Origin: Vigna angularis
Taxonomy: Eukaryota > Streptophyta > Magnoliopsida > Fabales > Fabaceae
Direction of reading: 5' to 3'
Length of the DNA stretch: 64,000 nucleotides
NCBI RefSeq assembly: GCF_016808095.1
Contig: NC_068976.1
Location: 558,001 to 622,000 of the forward strand
Positions 6,737 through 59,557 of this stretch are shown in pieces; within the stretch, counting starts at the first letter, position 1; each line of letters opens with the position of its first letter. The position numbers were made by a program, and so were the translations under genes. Under the pieces are notes generated by a model that saw only the letters and a list, made by a program, of their open reading frames with translations, had not been told where the DNA came from and made no database searches.

Positions 6737-7982
6737 TGTTAAGATATCAGCAAGTCTACCGAATCGTATCACGTAATATAAAATGGTAAGACCAAGTATC
6801 GTATCCCAAAGGACTCACAACACTAAATAGTTGTGTAATTGTTTAACTAATTAAAACTTAAGAACAATTTTTGGGGTTTTGAATGCAAATACAATAAAAA
6901 TAAACATCAATGCAATTTGATCAATTAAGGCTAAACACTAGAATGAATGGGTGAAGTTGATAATATAATAATGTTGTTGGGGTTTAGATTTCAACTAATC
7001 ACTCTCATTCATATATGAATTCTTCTTCTTCATTAAATTGTTAACGTCACTCTCTAAGTTACTTAAAACCTGATCCCTCAGCGAATAAAGTCTATCCTTA
7101 ATTACTAGACCACAATCCCTTGCATCCCTAATAATTAATTCTGCATTACGATTAGGAGCTTAAGACGACCAAAAGTCATACCCTCATCCTTGAGCAATAC
7201 TGTTTTTGGGAGCAATTCTCGAGAACCTAAATTGTAAGATACCTCCCGGTACTCATGCAAATCATACATCATGCCATGAATGAGTTAAATATAACAAGCA
7301 TTGAGCGAAGAAGAATTACCCTAACAATTAATGAAAGAAGCATATGTAATTAAAACATATTCAAATACATGAGAGTTTAGAGGTTACATCTTCCCCAACA
7401 ACAAATAAGGTTTAGTTCCCCATTAACATGGAGAAACTAGATGAACAATGGAATGGAAGAGATAGAAAATCCTAGAAAGAGAATAGGAGAGTTGTCACAT
7501 CCCCAAATCTACCCCCACAGGGGTGAAATGTGTGTTTCTGTGCTTATGTCATCAAAAGATACAATCCCTAGGACGTCCAAGTCCTTAAATATATCAAAAT
7601 AATAAAAAAAACAGGTATAAGTCCACGTCGTTGGTGCTCAGCACCCTAAGTGGGGCGCCCAGGTGGTGTGCGGGAAAAAAGCTTGAATGGCTGTAGCTTA
7701 GGGCCCCTGAGGGGGCCCTCAATTTCATCTTGACTTTTCTACACTACGTTTTTTTTTCTCTTTTTCTGCATTTCAACTCCTTGGTACTTTAACTCCTCTT
7801 TCAAATCATTCCAATAACCTACAAAATCAAGGGAATGTAGTGATAAAATCATTAAGTATACCCTCTACTCACTTATTCACAAAACTAAACTAAAAACATA
7901 GTTCAAGCAAGCTTCTAAGTCAAAAAGGGTTCTTTTAATATCAAAATTGAATCACAAATAACGGTATACTCAACCGTTATCA
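6737..7982 (-). repeat. Athila-like 3' LTR
   Basis: It runs from TGTTAAGATATC to CAACCGTTATCA on the plus strand and matches 10724-11830. It retains about 140 bp (near 7575-7720) that the right copy lacks. This part includes the perfect inverted repeat GGTGCTCAGCACC at 7633-7645 and a GGGCCCCTGAGGGGGCCC palindrome. Confidence 0.88.
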
Positions 7983-9348
7983 CAACCCCAAACTTGAAAC
8001 TTTGCTTGTCCTCAAGAAAAATGTAACTTGGCTTAAACAAAATAATCATACTACAATGGTCAAGCATATCAAAAAGCATTTTCCTCTAAGTAAATCACTC
8101 GTGTGTGCTCATCATAGAAAGATTAGTAAAGATATAATGATGCTTTAGCCAATAAAGCTTCAACTGTGGTGCTCACATGATCAAGACATACCACAACAGA
8201 TGCAAACCTCATGAATAATCAACAACCAAGCAAGAATGTTATCATACAGTGCATGGAACAATTCCTCACCAAAGATAGTGTTTTACTCAAGCACTCAAAA
8301 GTGTTTCACTCAAGCACTCAAAAGTATTTCACTCAACTCAAAGGTGTATAATGAGGTGACACTCTTACACTCTACCATCACAATGTCACATGAGTCAACT
8401 TTGTCTTTCATTTAAATACCATCAAACATACTCACAAGCAAGTTAACATCACAAGGGTTTTTCAAGGCTTGTAGCATGGTCGAGCTAAGAAGAAAATTGA
8501 TTTTTCTAGACAACAAAATCCTTGAGTTAAGAGAGTACACAATTCATTTATTCTCATTAATAATCAACTCTCTTTCTTATTTTATGTGAGAAACCAATTT
8601 TGAACTTATTCCCAACTTTACTTGCATTGAACTTAACATTTTCTTTCCTTTATTTTCTTTTCTTTTGCTTTTTGCTTTTGCTCTTTCTTTTCCCCAATGC
8701 TCTTTAATGAATTTCACAAAGTTCTTTTCGGTTTCTCACCACCCCAAACTCGAACCATTCTCCATTACCACAAAAACATACTCTACTTAACTCAAGGTAA
8801 GGATTTTAAAATGGGTTTTTGCCATTCAACTTTAAGCTCAAGGTTCAAAGGGTAAAGAGAAACATTGTTCTTTGTTGGGTTCACCTATGGGCATTGGCGC
8901 TAAGGGAGAAGAAAACATGGCCTTGATCATATGTAACAAGCAAGCAAGTGGTTCAATCATAGAAAATTAGGCAAAATCAATCATTCTTCCAAAGCAATAG
9001 CATTCAATCAATCAAAGACTCTGGAATCTAACCTCTCACGGGTTAAATCAAGTTCCACAATTTGATAAACATCCTGCCTAGCATATTAATCACAATTGAA
9101 ACCATGCATCTGTTTTAAACACAATTATGAGCAACCACCATCTATGCTTAAAAGCTTCACCAATCATTAACTCAACATGCATCATTAAACAATAGAGCAA
9201 ACACAAGAATATTACTCATCACAAACAACAATTTATCACCTCATACCAAACCATTGCATCACAATTCATTAAACCAAGTACATAAGCAAGCTAAAATAAT
9301 AACAAAACAAACAAAATTAAAATAAGCATATAAAAATCCTGATCCAGC
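7983..9348 (-). other. non-coding 3' internal region of the Athila-like element
   Basis: No gene is seen. The minus strand reads like the 3' untranslated region of the intact relative at about 46.3-47.2 kb: phrases equivalent to CTTGAGGACAAGCAAAG and GTTTGGGGTTGT next to the LTR occur in both. This end therefore contains the polypurine tract. Confidence 0.7.
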
Positions 9349-9349
9349 A

Positions 9350-9805
9350 GCATCCATTAGTAGATGCTTTCATCTAAATCTTTCAACATCCATCAGTAGA
9401 TGTGAATCCTTCCCATCAGCATCCATCAGTAGATGCTGAGCTTTATCATCTTCATCGACATCCATCAATAGATGCTTTCATCCTCATCAGCATCCATCGG
9501 TAGACGCTTAATGACATAGCATCTATCAGTAGATGCTTAATCTAGTAGCATCCATCAGTAGATGCTCTCATCTAAATCATCCTAGCATCTATTATTAGAT
9601 GCTTTAATCTGGTAGCATCCATCAGTAGATGCTCTCATCTAAATCATCCTAGCATCTACTAGTAGATGCTTTAATCTAGTAGCATCCATCAGTAGATGCT
9701 CTCATCTAAATCATCCTAGCATCCATCAGTAGATGCTATCATCTGAGTCCTCCTAGCATCCCTCAATAGATGTTGTCCAGCATCCATCAGTAGATGCTTT
9801 CATTA
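9350..9805 (-). repeat. array of 14 stem-loop repeats, AGCATC-TACTGATG-GATGCT type
   Basis: Read on the element's sense (minus) strand the 20-nt unit is AGCATCTACTGATGGATGCT: 6-nt arms around an 8-nt loop. I count 14 copies at spacings of about 11-30 nt, embedded in partly repeated spacers. Variants keep pairing in places: the copy near 9390 reads ACATC/GATGT on the plus strand, so the G-C pair has become A-T on both sides. No ORF runs through the array. The related element at 39403-48526 has the same loop with other stems. Confidence 0.9.
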
Positions 9806-9869
9806 CTGCAAAAAAAAAAATCAAATCCAAACCACATAAATAATCAATTAAAAAGAAAAAGTCAGAAAT

Positions 9870-9914
9870 TGGGTTGCCTCCCAATAAGCGCTTATTTAAC
9901 TTCACGAGCCTGAC
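9870..9914 (-). repeat. conserved GGGAGGCAACCC module of Athila-like elements
   Basis: On the minus strand this reads GTCAGGCTCGTGAAGTTAAA followed by TAAGCGCTTATTGGGAGGC and AACCCAAT. It matches two copies at 43551-43596 and 43799-43844 in the intact element. It ends in a hairpin, ATTGGG-AGGCAA-CCCAAT, whose outer pairs are C-G in the other copies and T-A here. Confidence 0.85.
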
Positions 9915-10141
9915 ACCATTAAGCACAATCCAGATTTTTGATATTGGTGCTTTTCTCTCTTTCATCACACCAACATAACTTCAACAACTTCCTAGTCATC
10001 ATCTTTACTCTCCTTGAATAAGGAGCCTCAATCTCAATAACTCCAATATCTTTAATATCTTTAATCACCCATAACATGTTCTTGAATTTCACTGGTTTGC
10101 CAAGGTAGGGTTCATTACTTCCAGACCTAAAAAGAAAAATT

Positions 10142-10256
10142 CTAATTGTACTTGAAGTCTAGCGCTCAGCGCCCTAAATGGGGCGACCAAGCGTTGATGT
10201 GTGACATCCTACGCTGAGGGCCCTTTGAGGTTCAACCAGGCGCGCCCTGCGACCTT
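10142..10256 (-). other. GC-rich inverted-repeat words in the Athila-like internal region
   Basis: AGCGCTCAGCGCC near 10161-10173 and nearby GGGGCG words resemble the LTR hairpin words GGTGCTCAGCACC and CCGCTGAGCGG. The central GCT(C/G)AGC is constant and the outer bases vary in complementary fashion. Confidence 0.5.
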
Positions 10257-10365
10257 CTTCAACCTTCTTCTCTTTTTTATGATCTTGTGCTCCTAGTACA
10301 GAATTTTGGATGTAATCCTGCAGACACTAAAGAACACTGCACTAGAGCACCCAATTAGCACAAAC

Positions 10366-10640
10366 AGATAAAAAGATAAAAAGGTAAAAAGATAAAAAGA
10401 TAAAAAGATAAAAAGATAAAAAGATAAAAAGATAAAAAGATAAAAAGATAAAAAGATAAAAAGATAAAAAGATAAAAAGATAAAAAGATAAAAAGATAAA
10501 AAGATAAAAAGATAAAAAGATAAAAAGATAAAAAGATAAAAAGATAAAAAGATAAAAAGATAAAAAGATAAAAAGATAAAAAGATAAAAAGATAAAAAGA
10601 TAAACAGATAAAAAGATAAAAAGATAAAAAAGATAAAAAA
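10366..10640. repeat. (GATAAAAA)n octamer microsatellite
   Basis: About 34 near-perfect copies of an 8-bp unit lie just downstream (element sense) of the primer binding site. The relative at 39403-48526 has a TTTTA-rich simple repeat at the same position (40.79-41.0 kb). Long frames rich in FLSFYLFI on the minus strand are artefacts of this repeat. Confidence 0.97.
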
Positions 10641-10702
10641 AACAAAAGATTAAGTCTAATCGGTTAAGAATCACACAAAAGTATAGTTTAAACCACAAGT
10701 TC

Positions 10703-10720
10703 CTGGCACCGGCGCCAAAA
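10703..10720 (-). other. primer binding site of the Athila-like element
   Basis: The minus strand reads TTTTGGCGCCGGTGCCAG directly 3' of the LTR (3 nt apart). It is one or two bases from the TGGCGCCGTTGCCGGGG site of the intact relative, which is complementary to the 3' end of plant tRNA-Asp as I recall it. Confidence 0.75.
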
Positions 10721-10723
10721 ACT

Positions 10724-11830
10724 TGTTACGATATCGGTAAGTGTACCGAATCGTATCAAGTAATATAAAATGGAAAAACCAAGTATCGTATCCCAAAGGA
10801 CTCACGGCACTAAATAGTTGTGTAATTGCTTAACTAATTAAGACTTGTGAACAATTTTTCGGGTTTTGAATGCAAATACAATAAAAATAAACATGAATGC
10901 AATTTGATCAATTGAGGTTAAAAACTAGAATGAATGGATGAATTTGATAATATGATAATGTTGTTGGGTTTAGATTTCACCTAATCACTCTCATGCATAT
11001 ATGAATTCTTCTTCTTCATTAAATTGTTAACGTCACTCTCTAAATTACTTAAAACTCAATCCCTCGGCGAAGAAAGCCTATCCTTAATTACTATACGACA
11101 ATCCCTTGCATCCCTAATAATTAATTCTGCATTACGATTAGGAGCTTAAGACGACCAAAAGTCATACCCCCATCCCTGAGCAATACTTCTTTTGGGAGAA
11201 ATTCTCCAGAACCTGAACTGTAAGATACCTCCCAATACTCAGGCAAATCATCCATGATGCCATGAATGAGTTAAACATAACAAGCATTGAGCGAAGAAGA
11301 ATTACCCTAACAATTAATGAAAGAAGCATATGTAATTAAAACCAATTCAAATACATGATAGTTTAGAGGCTACATCTTCCCCCAACAACAAATAAGGTTT
11401 AGTTCCCCATTAACATGGAGAAACTAGATGAACAATGGAATGGAAGAGATAGAAAAACCGTAGAAAGAGAAGAGGAGAGATGTCACATCCTTAAATCTAC
11501 CCCCGCAGGGGTGAAACGCGTGTTTTTGTGCTTATGCCATCAAAAGATACAATCCTTGAGGGGGCCCTTAGCTTCAGCTTGACTTTCTGCACTGCTTTTT
11601 TTTTCTGTTTTTCTGCATTCCAACTCCTTGGTACTTTAACTCCTCTTTCTAATCATTCCAATAACCTACAAAATCAAGGGAATTTAGTGTAAAAATTATT
11701 AAGTATACCCTCTACTCACTTATTCTCAAAACTAAATTAAAAACATGAGTCCAAGCAAGCTTCTAAGTCAAAAAGGGTTGATTTAATATCAAAATTGAAT
11801 CACAGATAACACTATATTCAACCGTTATCA
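10724..11830 (-). repeat. Athila-like 5' LTR with internal deletion
   Basis: It runs from TGTTACGATATCGG to CAACCGTTATCA and matches the left LTR except for a deletion of about 140 bp around 11555, exactly where the left copy carries its GC-rich palindromes. Confidence 0.87.
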
Positions 11831-12010
11831 CCATTTGCTTGGCCTATTCCATTGAGAGGAAAGTTGTTGTTTCGACCGAGCTTCAAGCGCTTCAAGAAAT
11901 ATATAATGAAGTTGTGAAGTCTAACCAAGAGTTGACCCTTCGGTTGGCATAAGTGGAAAGGATGGTGGAGTGATGGAGCTGTCGCGGCCCATACAAATTT
12001 GATGTGCATT
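11831..12010 (+). pseudogene. Tat antisense ORF, 3' part after the Athila insertion
   Basis: After one target-site copy the plus-strand frame resumes with AYSIERKVVVSTELQALQ and EIYNEVVKSNQELTLRLA, a likely coiled coil, then a TAA. It fits as the C-terminal continuation of the frame ending at 6736. Its junction with the Athila-like ends shows that the insertion hit the antisense ORF. Confidence 0.6.
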
Positions 12011-39402: not shown

Positions 39403-40707
39403 TGATAACAGTTGAAAAACTGTTATTTTCAGGCTTAAAATTGATATTAAAAGCAACCTTTAGACTTAGAAACTAGCTTGAAATCAATGCTTTTATCTAT
39501 ATTTTCAGAAATAAGAGAGCTGGACAGGTTTATGCTTGATTTGAGTGTTTTTGTGCAGGTTTTGAGGTGAATTTAGTGAAAGAAGTAAAGAAGGAGAGAA
39601 GTGGAATCATAAAAGGAAGCAAAGAGTGCAAAAAGAGAAGTCAAAGGCACCGCTCAGCGGCATTTTACCGCTGAGCGGCACTCAGGAGGTCACGGGAGGT
39701 CCGCTGAGGGGCAAACTGGCCGCTGAGGGGAAGAAAAGTGAAGCGAGGTCACCGCTGAGCGGTATTTACCGCTGAGCGGCACTTTTTGGGCTTGGGCTTT
39801 TGTAATCTTTTGTAACTCTAGAATAGTATATAAGGACTTGCACGTCCTAGGGTTAGACATCTTTGGCAGAAACGAGGCAAACACTCTCTCTTCCACCCCT
39901 TTGAAGGAGGATCTTGGATGCTCAGGCTACCTCTTCACCTTTTCAGGGTTTATTCTTTCATACTTTCATTGTAATTCATCTAGGTTCACCATGAATATGG
40001 TGAACTAAACCTTGTATGTTTGTTGGGGAATCAATGTAATCTCTTGAAGCTCTCATATATGGAATTTATGCTTGCATCTTAATCTAAGATTTATGCTTTC
40101 TTTCATCATTAGTTAGGGTTTTTCCTCTTTGCTTAATGCTTGCATTGTTTAACTCATTCTAATGCATGATTATTGGTTTTGTCGATACGGACACGTACGG
40201 GGAAGTCTAGATCTGGGGAATTTCTCCCAATATTATATTGGTTGTCGTTAAGCTCCTGCACTTATGAACTAATCATTAGGAATGCTAGGAATTGTATGAA
40301 CTCGTGATTAGGGAGAAGCCATCTAGAATGGTACTTTAGAGAGTGGCATTAACAATGATGATTTGAATGTTGAATTCCTAAAATGTATGAGAGTGGATGA
40401 GATGAAATTGACCCCCAACAACATATTCATTCATATATTCCATTGAAAGTGTTTATCTTTTGTCTTTGCCATTGATCAAATTTCATGCATACATGTTTAT
40501 TTTCGTCTTTTGCATAATATAATCCAAATATTTCGTTTGTAAGTCTTAGTTAATCAAGAAACCACACAACTAAACTAGGCCGTGAGTCCTTTGGGAAGAA
40601 CGATACTTGGTCTTACCAAGTTTATTACTTGAACGATTCGGTCATACTTGCCGATTGTAAAACAAGTTTGTGACATCATATTTTGGTGCTTACAAATTTG
40701 TCCATCA
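39403..40707 (+). repeat. Athila-like 5' LTR
   Basis: It is 1305 bp. Four CCGCTGAGCGG/CCGCTCAGCGG words (39650-39660, 39668-39678, about 39752-39762, 39769-39779) and two CCGCTGAGGGG variants lie just upstream of TATATAA at 39827-39833, the likely TATA box. A CT-rich leader (CACTCTCTCTTCC) follows about 50 bp on. Confidence 0.95.
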
Positions 40708-40713
40708 AGTTTT

Positions 40714-40730
40714 TGGCGCCGTTGCCGGGG
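40714..40730 (+). other. primer binding site of the Athila-like element
   Basis: TGGCGCCGTTGCCGGGG lies six bases after the LTR. It fits the 3' end of plant tRNA-Asp, the usual primer of Athila elements as I recall. Confidence 0.85.
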
Positions 40731-40739
40731 ACTCGTGGT

Positions 40740-41098
40740 TTAACTGGTTAATTTGTGTGATTATTGATTATCTTTGACTTTACTTTTGAATTTCTGTTTT
40801 TATTTTTTTTCTGTTTTTTATTTTATTTTATTTTTCTGTTTTTTATTTTATTTTATTTGATTAGGTTAGATTAGATTTTATTTTATTTTATTTTATCTTT
40901 TAGATTAGGTTAGATTAGATTTTATTTTATTTTTAGATTAGATTTTATTTTATTTTATTTTTTAGGTTAGGTTAGATTAGATTTTATTTTTAGATTAGGT
41001 TTTATTTGATTCTATCTTCTCAATCTTTTTATCTTCTGAATATATATCTTCTTCTATATCTTTTTGTGCTAACAAATCTTTTCTAGGGTTTTGTTTTC
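40740..41098 (+). repeat. leader with TTTTA/GATTAGGTTA simple repeats
   Basis: The stretch from 40790 to 41000 is made of TTTTATTTTA and TTAGGTTAGATTAGA runs. It corresponds in position to the (GATAAAAA)n tract of the minus-strand relative. No frame is present. Confidence 0.8.
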
Positions 41099-43540
41099 TT
41101 GTGTATGCAGGAAGCAATTCGAACTAGGAGTAAGAAAACAACAGAACCACTTTTTGAAGGTCTAGAAGAGAGTAGAAGGAGGAGAAGAATCAGAACGTCC
41201 AGAGAACTTTTCCCTTCTCCAGAGACTCTCTTACAATCATCACCACAAGGTTCTGTTCATAGCACAAGAAGTATGGAGAACAATAATGCTAGAAGAACTC
41301 TTGCAGATTACACTAATATTGCTGGACCTCAACACTTTAACAGCATAGCTAGACCTAGAGTCAATGCAGCCAACATGGAGGTCAAGCCAGCATTAATTCA
41401 ACTGGTGAAGAGTAATCAATTTAATGGGTTATCTCACGAAAGCCCATATGAGCACCTTACAACTTTTAATGAGATCTGCAACACGGTCAAGATTAATGGG
41501 GTGCCAGACGAAGCTATCAAACTTAGCTTGTTTCCCTTCTCATTGGGGGGCAATGCTAAGCTTTGGTTAAACTCTTTTCCAGAAGAAAGTTTCACAGAGT
41601 GGGAAGCAGTGGTCACAAAATTTTTAAACAAATACTTTCCACAATCTAAGGTGACCAAAGGCAAGCAAGAGATTTCATCATTCAAGCAGGGCATGGAAGA
41701 ATCACTGGGGCATGCATGGGACAGGTATAAAAGCTTGTTACGTAAAACTCCCACGCATGGTTTTGAAGATCAAGAAGTAGTCTTAACTTTCCTTGGAGGG
41801 CTTGGTTCACAAACCAAGATGATGCTGGACGCCTCAGCAGGAGGCAATATTAAATGGAAGACTCCAGAGGAAGCAACTGAAATTATAGAAAACATGGCTA
41901 CTAGTGACAATGAGCTGCACAGTGAGAGAGGAGCTCCTATGCAACAAAAAGGAGTTCTTCAATTACAAACACATGATGCCTTGCTAGCTCAGAACAAAAT
42001 TCTAACTCAACAGCTGGAGACTCTGACTAAAACTTTGGCTCAATTACCTAAAGAGCTGAAATCTGCTGCACAGGTACAAACCCAGTTGTGCGAATTATGT
42101 GGAGGTGATCATGTCAATGGTCAGTGTGCTTTTCCAGTGGAAGCCGTGGAGGATGTTAATTTCATGGCTAATCAATTTCCATACCGTCAAGGGAATTACA
42201 ATCAAGGGTGGAAACCACATCCAAGCATTGGCCAAGGACAAACTGGGCAAGCGAATCAATATAATAAGCAGCAGCAGCAACCAACCTTGTGGCAACAGTT
42301 ATCTATGCTTAATGAAAGACAAACAAGGTTGGAAGAAACTCTTCAGCAGTTCATACAGAAAACAGAATCTTCTCAAAAGAGCACTGAAGCTGCTATAAAG
42401 AATTGGGAGATTCAAATGGGTCAGATTACCAAGCGATTGGAAGAAAGACCAGATAGAAATTTTGGGGCTAATACTGAGGTTAACCCCAGAGAAGAGTGCA
42501 AAGTGGTAAAGAGTGTTAATGAAGAGATAATTGAGTTAGAAGAAGACGAAACAGAAGAAAGAAGAGAAGTAGAAAGAAAGAACATTTTTCCTTTTCCAAC
42601 AAATCAAGAGAAACAAATGGACTTCACAGAGTTATTCAGAATGGTGGACAATGATGCACCTTGGGAACAAATTCTACAGAAAATTTCAGTATACACAAAA
42701 TCAGATGAAGGAACCTCTACAAAGAAGAGACGTAGAGATGTTGAGGAAGAAAAGTGTATACCTGTTAAGCAAGAGTCATTCCCTCCTAAAGCACCAGATC
42801 CAGGTAGTTTTTCTATCCCTTGTACTATAGGGAAGAAAAAGGTAAAGAAAGCTCTCCTTGATTTAGGTTCAAGTGTTAACTTGATACCTTACTCTTTACT
42901 GGAGCAAATTGGCAATGTTAAAGTGAAACCTGTAAAGGTTAATCTAGTAATGGCCGATGGGTCTTCAAAGGAGCCATGTGGGATTGCTGAGGACATTATA
43001 ATTTGTGTTGGCAAACTTCAGTTTTTAGCAGACTTTGTGGTGATGAAAATGGAGACCGAGAAGATACCTATCATACTTGGAAGACCGTTTATGAAAACGG
43101 CCAGGGCCATCATTGATGTACATGAAGGTATAGTAGTGCTTCAGGATAGAGAGGAGAGAGTGGTGGTGGATGTCTTCAAGGATGAAACGCAAGCAAAGGA
43201 GGAAGAGGCTAGTTATAAAGCTGCATTTCGAGATGCACCCATGACTAGACATAAAGATGAAGATCTTGAGGTTTCAGGTAACCATTGTTTGTTGTTTCAG
43301 GTACCCAAGGAAGAGGAGATTGGAAGAGGAGAAGGAATTCCTAGAGACTGGAAGAAAAGAAGACTCCAACTTGGCACACCAGTAAGAATCAAGAACAAGT
43401 TGTGGGTTGTGAAGGGCTTTAAAGAGAAGGAGATGATAGAGATAGAGTCTCCATGTTCTAGAAGAATCAAGACAGTCCAAAGGAAGCAGTTGAGAAGTTG
43501 GTGGAATGGTTACATCAACTATAAAGAAGATGGAACTTGA
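41099..43540 (+). CDS. Gag-protease polyprotein of the Athila-like element, with an integrase-tail-like C terminus
   Basis: The 813-residue frame starts at ATG 41099. After an Arg-rich N-terminus comes LADYTNIAGPQHFNSIARP, then the Athila-type capsid domain (IQLVKSNQFNGL, LFPFSLGGNAKLWLNSFPE, FLNKYFPQSKVTKGKQEISS). A zinc-knuckle-like CELCGGDHVNGQC is near residue 335 and a Glu-rich segment near 480-500. The protease core is KKALLDLGSSVNLIPYSLL with DLG rather than DSG, as is usual in Athila, and IPIILGRPFMKTARAIIDVH. The last 50 residues (LGTPVRIKNKLWVVKGF, IEIESPCSRRIKTV, QLRSWW) resemble the tail of Athila integrase rather than Gag. If so, an in-frame deletion joined protease to the end of pol. 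No RT or integrase core is present. The frame is intact. It should form virus-like particles; function in trans is inferred. Confidence 0.9.
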   Translation: MCMQEAIRTRSKKTTEPLFEGLEESRRRRRIRTSRELFPSPETLLQSSPQGSVHSTRSMENNNARRTLADYTNIAGPQHFNSIARPRVNAANMEVKPALIQLVKSNQFNGLSHESPYEHLTTFNEICNTVKINGVPDEAIKLSLFPFSLGGNAKLWLNSFPEESFTEWEAVVTKFLNKYFPQSKVTKGKQEISSFKQGMEESLGHAWDRYKSLLRKTPTHGFEDQEVVLTFLGGLGSQTKMMLDASAGGNIKWKTPEEATEIIENMATSDNELHSERGAPMQQKGVLQLQTHDALLAQNKILTQQLETLTKTLAQLPKELKSAAQVQTQLCELCGGDHVNGQCAFPVEAVEDVNFMANQFPYRQGNYNQGWKPHPSIGQGQTGQANQYNKQQQQPTLWQQLSMLNERQTRLEETLQQFIQKTESSQKSTEAAIKNWEIQMGQITKRLEERPDRNFGANTEVNPREECKVVKSVNEEIIELEEDETEERREVERKNIFPFPTNQEKQMDFTELFRMVDNDAPWEQILQKISVYTKSDEGTSTKKRRRDVEEEKCIPVKQESFPPKAPDPGSFSIPCTIGKKKVKKALLDLGSSVNLIPYSLLEQIGNVKVKPVKVNLVMADGSSKEPCGIAEDIIICVGKLQFLADFVVMKMETEKIPIILGRPFMKTARAIIDVHEGIVVLQDREERVVVDVFKDETQAKEEEASYKAAFRDAPMTRHKDEDLEVSGNHCLLFQVPKEEEIGRGEGIPRDWKKRRLQLGTPVRIKNKLWVVKGFKEKEMIEIESPCSRRIKTVQRKQLRSWWNGYINYKEDGT

Positions 43541-43550
43541 ACTTTATTGG

Positions 43551-43596
43551 GTCAAGCTAATGACGTTAAAAGAGCGCTTGCTGGGAGGCAACCCAG
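43551..43596 (+). repeat. conserved module A, ending in hairpin CTGGG-AGGCAA-CCCAG
   Basis: GTCAAGCTAATGACGTTAAA is followed by AGAGCGCTTG and the hairpin, 11 nt after the Gag stop. Module B at 43799-43844 and a minus-strand copy at 9870-9914 match it. Confidence 0.88.
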
Positions 43597-43678
43597 TGAT
43601 TGATAAACTTTTGATTTTATTTTGGTTTTGTAATTTTTAAGTTGTGGACTTTATTCTGGACATTATTTTGTTGAATTT

Positions 43679-43786
43679 AGCATCTACTGAAGGATGCTAG
43701 GTGGTTAAGTATCTACTGAAGGATACTAGGTTTGTAACACCTACTGATGGGTGCTGGTAAGTTTGAAACACCTACTGATGGGTGTT
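43679..43786 (+). repeat. four covarying stem-loops between Gag and ORF2
   Basis: The units are AGCATC-TACTGAAG-GATGCT (43679-43698), AGTATC-TACTGAAG-GATACT (43708-43727), AACACC-TACTGATG-GGTGCT (43736-43755) and AACACC-TACTGATG-GGTGTT (43767-43786). Three of four stems are perfect although the stem sequence changes, and the 8-nt loop is constant apart from one base. The same loop is in the 14-copy array at 9350-9805. Confidence 0.92.
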
Positions 43787-43798
43787 GGTGGATTTTGG

Positions 43799-43844
43799 GT
43801 CAGGCTCGTGACGTTAAACAAGCGCTACCTGGGAGGCAACCCAG
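43799..43844 (+). repeat. conserved module B, ending in hairpin CTGGG-AGGCAA-CCCAG
   Basis: GTCAGGCTCGTGACGTTAAA is followed by CAAGCGCTACCTGGGAGGCA and ACCCAG. It is a second copy of module A and closes the stem-loop array. Confidence 0.88.
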
Positions 43845-43974
43845 TTGATTGATTGTTTTTGTTTGTTTATTTTAGTTAGGATTTGCATAAGCATTTTTAA
43901 CATTGAATTGCAGGGAACCCATGAGGGGCATGTAGGGAAGACACGTAGGTTAAGAAAAGAAGGAGAGGAGCACA

Positions 43975-44291
43975 TCACGAAAGTGCCGCTGAGCGGTATT
44001 TTACCGCTGAGCGGTACTCTCGCAGAATGGGCTTTAGTTCCCCTTAGCGGGACCCGAGCCCATTAGGGTATTTTTATACCCCAAGCTGTGTTTTAGGGTT
44101 TATTTTCAGGCTTCTCTCTGCACAAACACTTCCACACATCTTCTCCTAGGTTTTCCACATCTTTTCACTCTTCCCTCTTTAGAAAATCTCTCTTTCACTC
44201 ACTTTTTCACTAGTGTGCCATCAAAGTTTGGGGTTGGAAGAGAGCATTCTAGCTTGGAAGCATTCTCATTGCATCTAGTATCTCCACCCAA
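43975..44291 (+). promoter_or_regulatory. putative internal promoter and 5' exon for the second ORF
   Basis: The order of signals copies that of the LTR: CCGCTGAGCGG words at 43986-44016, then a TATTTTTATACCCC sequence near 44070, TTAGGGTTT, then a CT-rich leader with CTCTCTGCACAAACAC. This suggests that an LTR-like promoter drives the second ORF from inside the element. Similarity of layout is seen; activity is inferred. Confidence 0.45.
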
Positions 44292-44709
44292 GTAAGTAAA
44301 ATGCATTTTGTTTATTCTAGGGTTCTTGAATTTGAATGTGATTGTCAAAGCATGAATATTTAGGGGTTTTGATTTCTATGCATGATTTGATGATATATTT
44401 GATGTTTGAACCGATTAAACTGCATGATTATGAACTGGAACACTGAAAATTGCATTTGGGTGGAGTTAGGACAGCTTTAAAATAGGTTTTTCACAAATCT
44501 GCAGAGTTACCGCTGAGGGGTAAGTTACCGCTGAGCGGTACTCTGCCAGACTTGGTTTTTTCTGGTTTTTGCGTGCTGGAATGTGGCATTGGTGGCGCTG
44601 AGGGGAAATTCTGGCCCTCAGCGGTGGTTTAGCTTCGAAAGGAGTTGTGTTCTGTGTTTTACTAATGATTAACATCATGTTCTGTGGTTTTGTTGTGTTT
44701 TGAATGTAG
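44292..44709 (+). other. putative leader intron of the second ORF
   Basis: A donor GTAAGT at 44292 (after ATCTCCACCCAA) and an acceptor TTTGAATGTAG at 44699-44709 bracket an AT/T-rich stretch, and the ATG of the ORF comes three bases into the next exon. The intron itself carries CCGCTGAGCGG words near 44520. Confidence 0.55.
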
Positions 44710-44711
44710 GA

Positions 44712-45947
44712 ATGGCATCCTCTTCAGGAAAGAGATTGAAAACCATGGCAACCAAGAGGAAGAAAAAGGAACCAGAGCAACCCCACTCTAGCAGGTTCCT
44801 CTCTAGGAAACATGAGAAGCACTTTAGGGTGGTTCAGGACAGAAGACTTCTGATGGAGAGAAAGGTTGGAATGATACCTAACTTTGCTCCTCAATTTGGA
44901 GAGCAAGTGTTAGGGAATGATTGGGGAAAGCTAGCCACTTATCCTGCACCTGCCAACATAGCTGTGGTGAAGGAATTTTACACCAATGCAAAGAAGATTG
45001 GTGATTATCCAGCTGAGAATTATTTGGGCTATGTCAGAGGCCATGCTATCAGGTATGATCCTGATTCGATCAACAACTTCCTGGATACTGTGTGGGCTGG
45101 TGAGCAATGTCAGTTTGCTCTTTGCATGGAGGAAGGTGCTGATTTTGAGGATGTGGAGAGAGTGTTGTGTATACCTGGAGGACACTTCCAAAGGAATAGA
45201 TCTGGCTCAGTGGTTAACATTAGGAGGACAGATTTGACTCCTCTTGCAAAATATTGGATGGCATTTTCTCATGCCAACATTCAGCCATGTTCACATGTGT
45301 CAGATATTACTCTCAGCAGGGCACTATTCATCTACTGTGCTATCAGAAATTTGAATGTTAATATTGGGCAGGTGATAGCTGATGAAATTAGTGTATGTGC
45401 GAACACCTCAAACAACAAAGCACCACTAGGACATCCTTCTTTGATCACTCACCTCTGCAAGCTAGCTGGGGTGGACACTTCTGTTCCACCATTTGAGAGG
45501 CCAAGAAAAGCTATTGATGAGGCTTATTATAGACAGTACTGTGGAGGTGAGGATGTAGCTCAGCCAGTTCCACCACGTCGTGCTCGTAGAGAGAGAGGGC
45601 CAGCACAGAGCCAGACATCTGCTGATACACATGAAGCAGAACCATTCCAGATGAGGGACATGTATATGTCTCTTATAGGTGCTCAGTTGCAGTCTATTCA
45701 CAGAGGGCAGGTGGCTACTGCTGAGATGATAGTGGGGATGTATGATACACCTCCAGCCCACAGGTGGACTATGGATGAATTCCATAATGTAGTAGCTTGG
45801 CCAGAAGAACCAGTACATGGAGGAGGAGCTGGAGCAGCTGAAGCTTCAGCAAGAGATATGGAAGAAGATGAAGCTGAGGAGGAGGATGCATTTGATGATG
45901 ATGAAGATGAGGAGGAAGAGGAAGATACAGAGGACAACTCAGACTGA
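44712..45947 (+). CDS. second ORF of the Athila-like element, plant transposon protein family of unknown function
   Basis: I chose ATG 44712 (MASSSGKRLKTMATKRKKKE) because it follows the likely splice acceptor; an ATG 12 nt upstream is in frame but lies in the intron. The protein has 411 residues. A basic N-terminus resembles a nuclear localisation signal. The middle, with ANIAVVKEFYTNA, YVRGHAIRYDPDSINNFLDT and further LAKYWMAFSHANIQPCSHVS, matches the 'putative plant transposon protein' family known from legume and other plant elements (PF20167 as I recall). The C-terminus is almost all Glu/Asp. No signal peptide or membrane segment is seen, so it is not an obvious envelope protein, though Athila elements often carry an env-like ORF in this place. 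It is intact and in sense orientation. Its role in the element is unknown. Confidence 0.82.
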   Translation: MASSSGKRLKTMATKRKKKEPEQPHSSRFLSRKHEKHFRVVQDRRLLMERKVGMIPNFAPQFGEQVLGNDWGKLATYPAPANIAVVKEFYTNAKKIGDYPAENYLGYVRGHAIRYDPDSINNFLDTVWAGEQCQFALCMEEGADFEDVERVLCIPGGHFQRNRSGSVVNIRRTDLTPLAKYWMAFSHANIQPCSHVSDITLSRALFIYCAIRNLNVNIGQVIADEISVCANTSNNKAPLGHPSLITHLCKLAGVDTSVPPFERPRKAIDEAYYRQYCGGEDVAQPVPPRRARRERGPAQSQTSADTHEAEPFQMRDMYMSLIGAQLQSIHRGQVATAEMIVGMYDTPPAHRWTMDEFHNVVAWPEEPVHGGGAGAAEASARDMEEDEAEEEDAFDDDEDEEEEEDTEDNSD

Positions 45948-47221
45948 TGAGGAGCTGAGATAGCATTTACTGATGAATGCTATCATATGATTATGCTTTT
46001 GCGGTTTAAGTTTTCTGAACTTATTTGTTTTTGTTTTTAGATTAGGGTTTGATGTACTCTATTGAAAACCTGGTTTGTTATGATGGTTTGCTATTAACTG
46101 TGATTGTGTGATAAGTACTGCTTGATGATGCTTATTGATTGATTGATGTTGAGATAGATGTGCACATTAAAATGCTTATACAGGTGGTTCACAAGCTTTG
46201 TGAACAAATGCATGATATCATGATTGTGATTGTGAGATTAAGCAGGATGTGTATGTCAAATGTGAATGAGCTTATATGTGAGGTTTTGAGCTCCAGAGTT
46301 TTTGGTATGATTGAATGCTATTACTTTGAAAGCATGAATGATTTTGCCCAGGTTTTCTATGATTGAATCAATTGCTTGTTTTGCATCATGTGATCAAGGC
46401 CATTTGTTGGAACCCTTTTTATTGGCCAAATTCATAAAGTTAGCTTACTAAAAGAGAACACGTTGTGTTCTATCCTTTGAACCCTTAGCCTTGAACATAC
46501 ACTGAAAACCTTTGATTGAAAATCTTTACCTTGAGTTAAGTAGAAGATCTTGTGTGGTATTGTTGAATGTTCAAGTTTGGGGTTGTTGGGAAAACATGAA
46601 AAGAAAAGCATTGAGCTAAGAAGCTAAAAAGTCAGAATATACAAAGAGAAAAGAAAAAGAAGTAAAGCTCAATGCTAATGTAAAGGTAAAAGAAAGTTGG
46701 GAATGAATAAGATAATTGTGTTGTTATGATTCTCTTAACTCAAGGATTTTGTGATCCAGAAAAACCAATTTTCTTGTTAGCCCAGCCACATTATAAGCCA
46801 TTGAAAAGTCCTTGTGATGATGCATGCTTGTGAATGTTTTTGATTGTGGTAAAATGAAAGGCAAAGTTGATTCGTGTGACATTGTGATAATAGAGTGAAG
46901 GAGTGAAACACCTCACCTCTTATACACTTGTGTGTTGAGTGAAACACTTTACCTAGTGAGGAAATAGTCCATAAGCACATGAACATCCATGCTTAATTGA
47001 TTGATCATTCATGAAAAATAGCATTTGTTGGAATTTAAATGACTTTGTGAACACTAAAGCATGTGCACATCTTGATTGAACTCTTGGTCATAAGTTTGAG
47101 TGAAGTTGTTATTTATCTTGAAAAGAGGATTTTGAATGAGTGAATCATCATATGAATTGGTTGAAGATGGAGTTACATCTTGTTTTGCTTGAGGACAAGC
47201 AAAGTTCTAAGTTTGGGGTTG
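45948..47221 (+). other. 3' untranslated region and polypurine tract of the Athila-like element
   Basis: No gene is present. CTTGAGGACAAGCAAAG at about 47189-47205 and AAGTTTGGGGTTG ending at 47221 are shared with the minus-strand relative (near 7983-8030). The latter is the polypurine tract directly before the 3' LTR. Confidence 0.8.
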
Positions 47222-48526
47222 TGATAACAGTTGAAAAACTGTTATTTTCAGGCTTAAAATTGATATTAAAAGCAACCTTTAGACTTAGAAACTAGCTTGA
47301 AATCAATGCTTTTATCTATATTTTCAGAAATAAGAGAGCTGGACAGGTTTATGCTTGATTTGAGTGTTTTTGTGCAGGTTTTGAGGTGAATTTAGTGAAA
47401 GAAGTAAAGAAGGAGAGAAGTGGAATCATAAAAGGAAGCAAAGAGTGCAAAAAGAGAAGTCGAAGGCACCGCTCAGCGGCATTTTACCGCTGAGCGGCAC
47501 TCAGGAGGTCACGGGAGGTCCGCTGAGGGGCAAACTGGCCGCTGAGGGGAAGAAAAGTGAAGCGAGGTCACCGCTGAGCGGTATTTACCGCTGAGCGGCA
47601 CTTTTTGGGCTTGGGCTTTTGTAATCTTTTGTAACTCTAGAATAGTATATAAGGACTTGCATGTCCTAGGGTTAGACATCTTTGGCAGAAACGAGGCAAA
47701 CACTCTCTCTTCCACCCCTTTGAAGGAGGATCTTGGATGCTCAGGCTACCTCTTCACCTTTTCAGGGTTTATTCTTTCATACTTTCATTGTAATTCATCT
47801 AGGTTCACCATGAATATGGTGAACTAAACCTTGTATGTTTGTTGGGGAATCAATGTAATCTCTTGAAGCTCTCATATATGGAATTTATGCTTGCATCTTA
47901 ATCTAAGATTTATGCTTTCTTTCATCATTAGTTAGGGTTTTTCCTCTTTGCTTAATGCTTGCATTGTTTAACTCATTCTAATGCATGATTATTGGTTTTG
48001 TCGATACGGACACGTACGGGGAAGTCTAGATCCGGGGAATTTCTCCCAATATTATATTGGTTGTCGTTAAGCTCCTGCACTTATGAACTAATCATTAGGA
48101 ATGCTAGGAATTGTATGAACTCGTGATTAGGGAGAAGCCATCTAGAATGGTACTTTAGAGAGTGGCATTAACAATGATGATTTGAATGTTGAATTCCTAA
48201 AATGTATGAGAGTGGATGAGATGAAATTGACCCCCAACAACATATTCATTCATATATTTCATTGAAAGTGTTTATCTTTTGTCTTTGCCATTGATCAAAT
48301 TTCATGCATACATGTTTATTTTCGTCTTTTGCATAATATAATCCAAATATTTCGTTTGTAAGTCTTAGTTAATCAAGAAACCACACAACTAAACTAGGCC
48401 GTGAGTCCTTTGGGAAGAACGATACTTGGTCTTACCAAGTTTATTACTTGAACGATTCGGTCATACTTGCCGATTGTGAAACAAGTTTGTGACATCATAT
48501 TTTGGTGCTTACAAATTTGTCCATCA
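47222..48526 (+). repeat. Athila-like 3' LTR
   Basis: It is 1305 bp and near-identical to 39403-40707. Differences seen by eye are at positions equivalent to CAAAGG/CGAAGG, GCACGTCC/GCATGTCC, ATCTGGG/ATCCGGG, ATTCCATT/ATTTCATT and TGTAAAAC/TGTGAAAC. Confidence 0.95.
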
Positions 48527-59296: not shown

Positions 59297-59390
59297 TCCG
59301 ACCTGCCGGATTCGAACCAGCGACCTAAGGATAACTATCAGGTATAATACCCACTACAGTCCTCCGCTCTACCAACTGAGCTAAGGTCGG
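59297..59390 (-). tRNA. tRNA-Tyr (GUA) with 21-nt intron
   Basis: The minus strand starts CCGACCTTAGCTCAGTTGGT (acceptor and D arm), then GAGGACTGTAG with anticodon GTA, an intron of 21 nt (TGGGTATTATACCTGATAGTT) after position 37, ATCCTT closing the anticodon stem, and GGTTCGAATCC (T arm) and GGTCGGA. The mature length is 73 nt. Nuclear tRNA-Tyr genes of plants regularly carry an intron here. Confidence 0.97.
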
Positions 59391-59464: not shown

Positions 59465-59557
59465 TCCGACCTGCCGGATTCGAACCAGCGACCTAAGGAT
59501 AGCTATCAGGCATTTACCTACTACAGTCCTCCGCTCTACCAACTGAGCTAAGGTCGG
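59465..59557 (-). tRNA. tRNA-Tyr (GUA) with 20-nt intron, tandem copy
   Basis: The mature part is identical to the copy at 59297-59390. The intron is 20 nt and diverged (TAGGTAAATGCCTGATAGCT). The copies are 74 bp apart in the same direction. Confidence 0.97.

Follow-up and report, generated by a model that had tools for sequence, protein, structure and literature searches.

The window (the whole 64,000-nt stretch of Vigna angularis DNA that was analysed) contains a young, Athila-like LTR retrotransposon, element 1 (39403-48526), which is nested inside another Ty3-type element. It is bounded by LTRs of 1,305 bp each (99.6% identity), with a 5-bp target duplication, CTTAC, at either end. The features of element 1, all on the forward strand, were as follows.

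39403..40707 (+), 5' LTR (self-comparison; 99.6% identical to the 3' LTR)
40714..40731 (+), primer binding site TGGCGCCGTTGCCGGGGA, directly 3' of the 5' LTR
41099..43540 (+), gag-protease ORF of 813 aa, its C-terminal tail common to pol-less relatives (stop 43538-43540)
43547..43597 (+), module copy 1, TGACGTTAAA...AGCGCT...TGGGAGGCAACCCA (repeat comparison; core counted genome-wide)
43679..43698 (+), hairpin unit 1, AGCATC/TACTGAAG/GATGCT (identical pairs in 40/40 copies)
43708..43727 (+), hairpin unit 2, AGTATC/TACTGAAG/GATACT (unit search, folding, copy comparison)
43736..43755 (+), hairpin unit 3, AACACC/TACTGATG/GGTGCT, with an A.C mismatch at pair 2 here (same basis as units 1 and 2)
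43767..43786 (+), hairpin unit 4, AACACC/TACTGATG/GGTGTT (unit search, folding, copy comparison)
43795..43845 (+), module copy 2 (86% identical to module copy 1)
44712..45947 (+), extra ORF, PF20167 ('Transposase_32'); called start TTG 44700, first ATG 44712, after an acceptor-like TAG
45962..45981 (+), hairpin unit 5, AGCATT/TACTGATG/AATGCT, 3' of the extra ORF (in 34/40 copies)
47222..48526 (+), 3' LTR (self-comparison)

The gag-protease ORF carries PF03732 (E 1.2e-16) and PF13650 (23.9 bits, just below the 24.3 cut-off), and the protein relatives of its gag were legume and Arabidopsis gag proteins, which we take to be Athila; the primer binding site is presumably of the tRNA-Asp type. Reverse transcriptase (RT), RNase H and integrase core were absent from element 1 in its ORFs and in domain searches. 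Among the traits of the Athila lineage, the gag/protease type, the primer site and the 5-bp duplication were thus present and pol was missing, and element 1 is therefore regarded as a non-autonomous Athila relative. The same C-terminal tail, again without pol, was seen in recorded proteins of V. angularis, V. unguiculata and V. mungo (P0002, P0004, P0007, P0010, P0012 and P0017); its occurrence in three Vigna species suggests that the pol-less type is probably old.

The array at 43679-43786 consists of four 20-nt units with a shared 8-nt loop and differing stems, as originally predicted from the letters alone. The stems quoted in that prediction were found in units 1, 2 and 4, whereas unit 3 ends in GGTGCT and is mismatched. 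The array does lie between two module copies, but the ORF before it, described as Gag, encodes gag, protease and an extra tail, and the distance from its stop (43538-43540) to the array is 139 nt rather than 150 nt. All sense frames of the array contain stops, and a protein search with the translated array gave no match. Relative to shuffles, single units of the element 1 type folded better by 0.98 to 5.1 standard deviations, the mismatched unit 3 being the weakest (32/200 shuffles equally good), and the stem of unit 5 lengthens to 11 pairs (45959-45984). Part of the loop is itself stem, as T.G and A-T pairs shrink the TACTGATG loop to CTGA. Complements of the loop were not found elsewhere in the two window elements (element 2 is described below), nor was any unit with at least 15 matching letters found in the LTRs of either.

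Several minor features lie around the array. A donor-like GGTAAG (43756-43761) is directly 3' of unit 3 in 38/40 copies, and an acceptor-like AG precedes the extra-ORF ATG (44707-44714) in 38/40 copies, two being without a match. Boxes of the form CCGCTGAGCGGTA occur at 43986-44052 and 44505-44540, two of which form AGCGGTATTTTACCGCT, similar to the Sirevirus Inga motif AGCGGTASTACCGCT in the part of the source covered (PMC2829016). The module also holds a hairpin, whose loop is AGGCAA or AGGCAC and whose stem differs by family (43557-43602, 43805-43850, 9858-9902 and L079-L105); three of its six pairs were double-changed between families, but 36/500 shuffles equalled that, and its covariation is not significant. 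A gag-coding hairpin at 42466-42485 with a similar loop was attributed to conserved gag coding. Two weak snoRNA matches (E 0.22 and 0.7) lie near unit 5. At gathering score, Rfam 15 matched two tRNAs only over the whole window and left the array unmatched; two adjacent tRNA genes (59297-59390 and 59465-59557, minus strand) lie in stretches that are 89% identical.

A second array was found in element 2 (minus strand, ~6737-11831), which is older than element 1 (91-92% identity between LTR pieces), has ~2.7 kb of internal DNA with nearly no coding sequence left, and contains no extra ORF.

9349..9798 (-), array of 14 hairpin units (unit search, self-comparison)
9864..9914 (-), the element 2 module, lying 5' of the array (sequence comparison)
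9943..10104 (-), ORF-tail remnant (sequence comparison)

One loop of element 2 reads TACTAGTA, its second half being the reverse complement of its first half. In the leader of element 2, an 8-base unit is repeated 36 times as a microsatellite (10362-10650).

The genome (448 Mb) was searched with positions 43600-43860 as query. This gave 1,658 first-look candidates for element 1-type loci, 40 of which were scored, all at least 91% identical bar short second matches; the array was present in all 40 scored copies, the window copy included (39 with four units, one with five). A set of 61 element 1-type loci was then made up of these 40 copies, 20 loci chosen by module spacing, which contribute longer and shorter arrays, and L089, with the window locus included. 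The corresponding search for the element 2 type gave 1,191 candidates (40 scored, 30 fetched, with 9 to 16 units apiece), and with 61 and 30 loci of the two types the array is thus not confined to the two window elements.

For the main test of pairing, units were picked by loop alone, which removed the pairing filter used for the added loci; earlier unit finding had relied on likeness to paired seeds or on that filter. By loop alone, the 61 loci held four units in 43 cases, five in 15, three in 2 and seven in 1, giving 260 units with 20 distinct stems in which 95 of the 100 cells at pairs 2-6 held a standard pair, 88 of them Watson-Crick. Swapping arms between stems gave a mean of 85.9 and a maximum of 93 in 5,000 trials, and the covariation expected of a family alignment in the original prediction was therefore borne out for the element 1 type, above shuffles as well as arm swaps. 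With unit 5 and the earlier finder, the set rose to 292 units (33 distinct 20-mers, 21 stems) with 100/105 cells paired, against an arm-swap mean of 89.2 and maximum of 97, the extra loci of this set having been selected with the pairing filter; the five unpaired cells were A.C (1), C.A (2), G.A (1) and T.T (1). The outermost pair was poorly kept, with T.T in 7/21 stems. Mean folding energy of the distinct units was -6.2 kcal/mol, compared with -3.6 after arm swap.

Among the 33 distinct units, which are of common ancestry and represent some four to six independent events, the covariation score was 0.402 versus 0.237 +/- 0.020 in shuffles (0/500), and 40 cells were double-changed versus 12.3 (0/500), with all slid controls lower. 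The number of pairs changed on both sides (121/500) and the number of pair types (435/500) were not above shuffles in these units. The 19 window units gave a similar picture: six Watson-Crick double-changed cells were observed versus 0.45 expected (0/50,000 simulations), or versus 1.35 in an all-transition model (P 4e-5), although these simulations assume independent units and the units are in fact related. Their covariation score was 0.213 versus 0.140 +/- 0.012 (0/500 shuffles) and four pairs had changed on both sides versus 0.9 (1/500), while the number of pair types was again not above shuffles (324/500). For the two window elements, a Fisher test gave P 0.013 (10:1 vs 2:5), a weak result given the relatedness of the units.

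Comparison of the 40 copies, from which one of the five units of L025 was left out, showed where the changes fall. Identity between units of one copy was 0.914 in the loop, 0.662 in the stem and 0.329 in the flanks. Differences between units affected pairs 2, 3, 5 and 6, every one matched on both sides, whereas all six single-copy changes were one-sided (fixed versus private change 4:0 vs 0:6, P 0.0048, with subset-shared states excluded; P = 0.085 when these are added as four one-sided changes). The subset-shared states were seen at slot 3 pair 2 (A-T 24, A.C 12, G.T 4, the window copy being A.C) and in slot 4 at pair 1 (A-T 24, T.T 16) and pair 2 (A-T 30, G.T 10). G.U half-steps were present in 20 units at pair 2, in three at pair 5 and in one at pair 3, and the series A-U, G.U, G-C at pair 2, like C-G, U.G, U-A at pairs 3 and 5, is found complete in living copies. 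One-sided G.U states occurred in 7 distinct stems and A.C in 3, an excess so small that RNA rather than DNA is not proven.

The older, element 2-type lineage behaved differently and overall shows little covariation. Over 359 units, identity was 88.5% in loops, 93% in inner stems, 67% in outer stems and 34-35% in flanks; pairs 3-6 were conserved in sequence, with no covariation. At pair 2, G-C was counted 188 times, A.C 75, G.T 44 and A-T 27, where ~21 A-T would be expected if the letters were independent. The outer two pairs are often unpaired and some mismatches are fixed. Of four individual slots, one had a matched G-C at pair 1 (15/23), another C.T (23/25), a third G.U at pair 4 (14/28) and a fourth A.C at pair 2 (19/29), two slots that were too gapped (n 1 and 2) being omitted from these counts. 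For this lineage the pattern fits preservation of a 16-nt core better than preservation of a stem of six pairs, and it was counted against a strict reading of selection on the stem. The joint change of both stem sides in the original prediction is not supported for the element 2 type, with its unkept outer pairs and with A.C and C.T fixed in some slots. The loop, proposed as the recognised part, was the best conserved part in element 1 copies and varies in the element 2-type lineage.

The occurrence of the array was then considered in relation to pol. Exact module cores numbered 2,505 in the genome (reversed control 0). Of the 100 module loci listed, 12 were inspected over a 541-nt piece, in which the array was absent from 10 and present in two (L087 and L089). 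A search for integrase ends gave 986 candidates, 150 of which were scored; the longest open frame had 1,807 codons. In 15 of these 150, sampled to span families and not all long-framed, no unit was found within ~600 nt downstream (0/15, including the family that shares the LTRs of element 1), and the module was found in 15/15. Conversely, RT or integrase core was found in none of 38 array loci within ~1.5 kb upstream, where no similarity to the pol protein P0108 extended beyond its residue 302, and the gag-protease ORF tail was present over about the same distance in 32/38. The array thus appears to mark pol-less lineages. In viral and bacterial collections, the module pattern gave no match, the extra ORF and a gag alignment gave no confirmed relatives, and the hairpin pattern gave one match, of the order expected by chance by our estimate; the module pattern also gave no match in a genome contig collection. 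Another Athila-like family (L097-L103, at about 180-600) has different palindromes after the module (TCGCAYAGCGCA, with TGCGCT.TGCGA arms), in which arm changes are partly matched.

Five loci, all from a single pol-bearing family and all with a frame of 1,720 codons, matched the 3' region of element 1 at 94-97%, and three pieces spanning the start of the 3' LTR matched element 1 at 92-98%, compared with 66-76% between elements 2 and 1 over the 3' region. The array is missing in this LTR-sharing pol-bearing family and present in element 2. Most simply, element 1 would have arisen by recombination, with a pol-less lineage supplying the gag-protease and its tail, a module and the array, and the pol-bearing family supplying a module and the 3' end; its two module copies would then be the recombination seam. 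Recombination among Athila families has been described (PMC2410132, in the passages covered), and the same passages report pol-less Athila families of Arabidopsis whose gag and env are intact and whose mobilisation in trans is presumed; these are of the same pol-less type, with no hairpin array in those passages.

As judged from the aligned copies of the younger lineage, the arms pair and have changed together, and the loop TACTGAWG is kept while the flanks are not. With arms changed in step around a constant loop, the folded shape itself seems to matter. The reading that we favour, at slightly less than an even chance, is that, in Athila-like elements lacking pol, the array folds into short stem-loops of the sense (genomic) RNA and has been selected as structure; that the folded RNA is what selection acts on is, from the same comparisons, evenly balanced. 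The repeated loop would serve as a platform to which a protein binds, with Gag or one of its partners the likeliest candidate, and this platform could be used while the pol-less elements are packaged and copied by enzymes from a pol-bearing family. A constant loop with varying paired arms and unrelated spacers would fit recognition of the hairpin loop by a protein, the retention of the array in the near-codeless element 2 would suit a cis function in genomic RNA, and its apparent restriction to pol-less loci would suit a role in borrowing enzymes. Packaging as such is perhaps the role of the array, though with low probability. Dimerisation through the loop, also proposed originally, is improbable since the loop is not self-complementary; in Ty1, where RNA hairpins serve dimerisation and packaging, the parts of the source covered (PMC5454406) place the hairpins at the 5' end with kissing loops, while the array is downstream of gag-protease.

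An alternative, which we consider unlikely, is that the units are palindromic boxes acting on double-stranded DNA as binding sites or a chromatin feature, for example at a promoter of the extra ORF. The precedent is the Sirevirus motifs, which in the portions of the source covered (PMC2829016) are palindromic boxes repeated before the envelope gene (77/79 linker copies cluster upstream of ENV), 12 of 13 listed motifs with a CGG-CCG core, that are also found in LTRs and are 66-100% identical between copies. The likeness, numerous short palindromes that cluster in a plant LTR retrotransposon between pol and the envelope gene, limits the statement in the original prediction that no element of this form had been described, and the CCGCTGAGCGG boxes that lie in element 1 after module 2 and before the extra ORF, together with the different palindromes after the module in L097-L103 would fit such a role. 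However, Sireviruses are Ty1/copia and the array elements Ty3/Athila, the array has no CGG-CCG core, and the LTRs of the two window elements lack it (no unit with at least 15 matching letters). Its arms also vary within one element with pairing kept and the loop fixed, which would be ill-suited to a fixed half-site, and whereas the Sirevirus linker copies occur only where an envelope gene is present, the 14 units of element 2 stand in an element lacking the extra ORF. The array itself was not found in the literature on Athila or env-like elements, retrotransposon palindromes and Vigna repeats, a scope outside which most subscription papers fell.

Equally improbable is a neutral palindromic minisatellite, in which slippage spreads the copies and template switching in the hairpin equalises the arms in one step, with no selection. 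Palindrome-perfecting mutations of this kind are described in yeast in the part of the source covered (PMC3820800), unit number ranges from 3 to 16, and the two halves of one element 2 loop, TACTAGTA, are reverse complements. Against this, identity between units is 91% in the loop versus 33% in the flanks, and G.U half-steps stand at three of the four covarying pairs (at one of them in a single unit). In addition, the matched changes at the four pairs are all transitions, where copying of arms should also yield transversions. Tandem repeats are known from expanded non-coding regions of large non-chromovirus elements of plant Ty3/gypsy (PMC6317226, as far as covered), from which the array differs in that its spacers are unrelated and the hairpin alone is repeated. 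A service of the array to extra-ORF expression, through splicing or internal translation, is very unlikely: it does sit between two ORFs, with GGTAAG after unit 3 and AG before the ATG each in 38/40 copies, but these copies are so closely related that conserved splice-like sites say little, and element 2 keeps the array without an extra ORF.

If the favoured reading of RNA stem-loops selected as structure is taken further, the array could be a modular hairpin platform that recombination has carried from one pol-less Athila lineage to another, whose many copies of one loop would tag the RNA for trans-mobilisation, that is, for replication by LTR-sharing pol-bearing families; this extension is rather doubtful. 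For the question of how pol-less plant retrotransposons compete for the enzymes of their partners, an array present in pol-less lineages and absent downstream of the sampled integrase ends provides a concrete and testable object, and it would be a rare case of compensatory evolution between repeated units within a single plant element.
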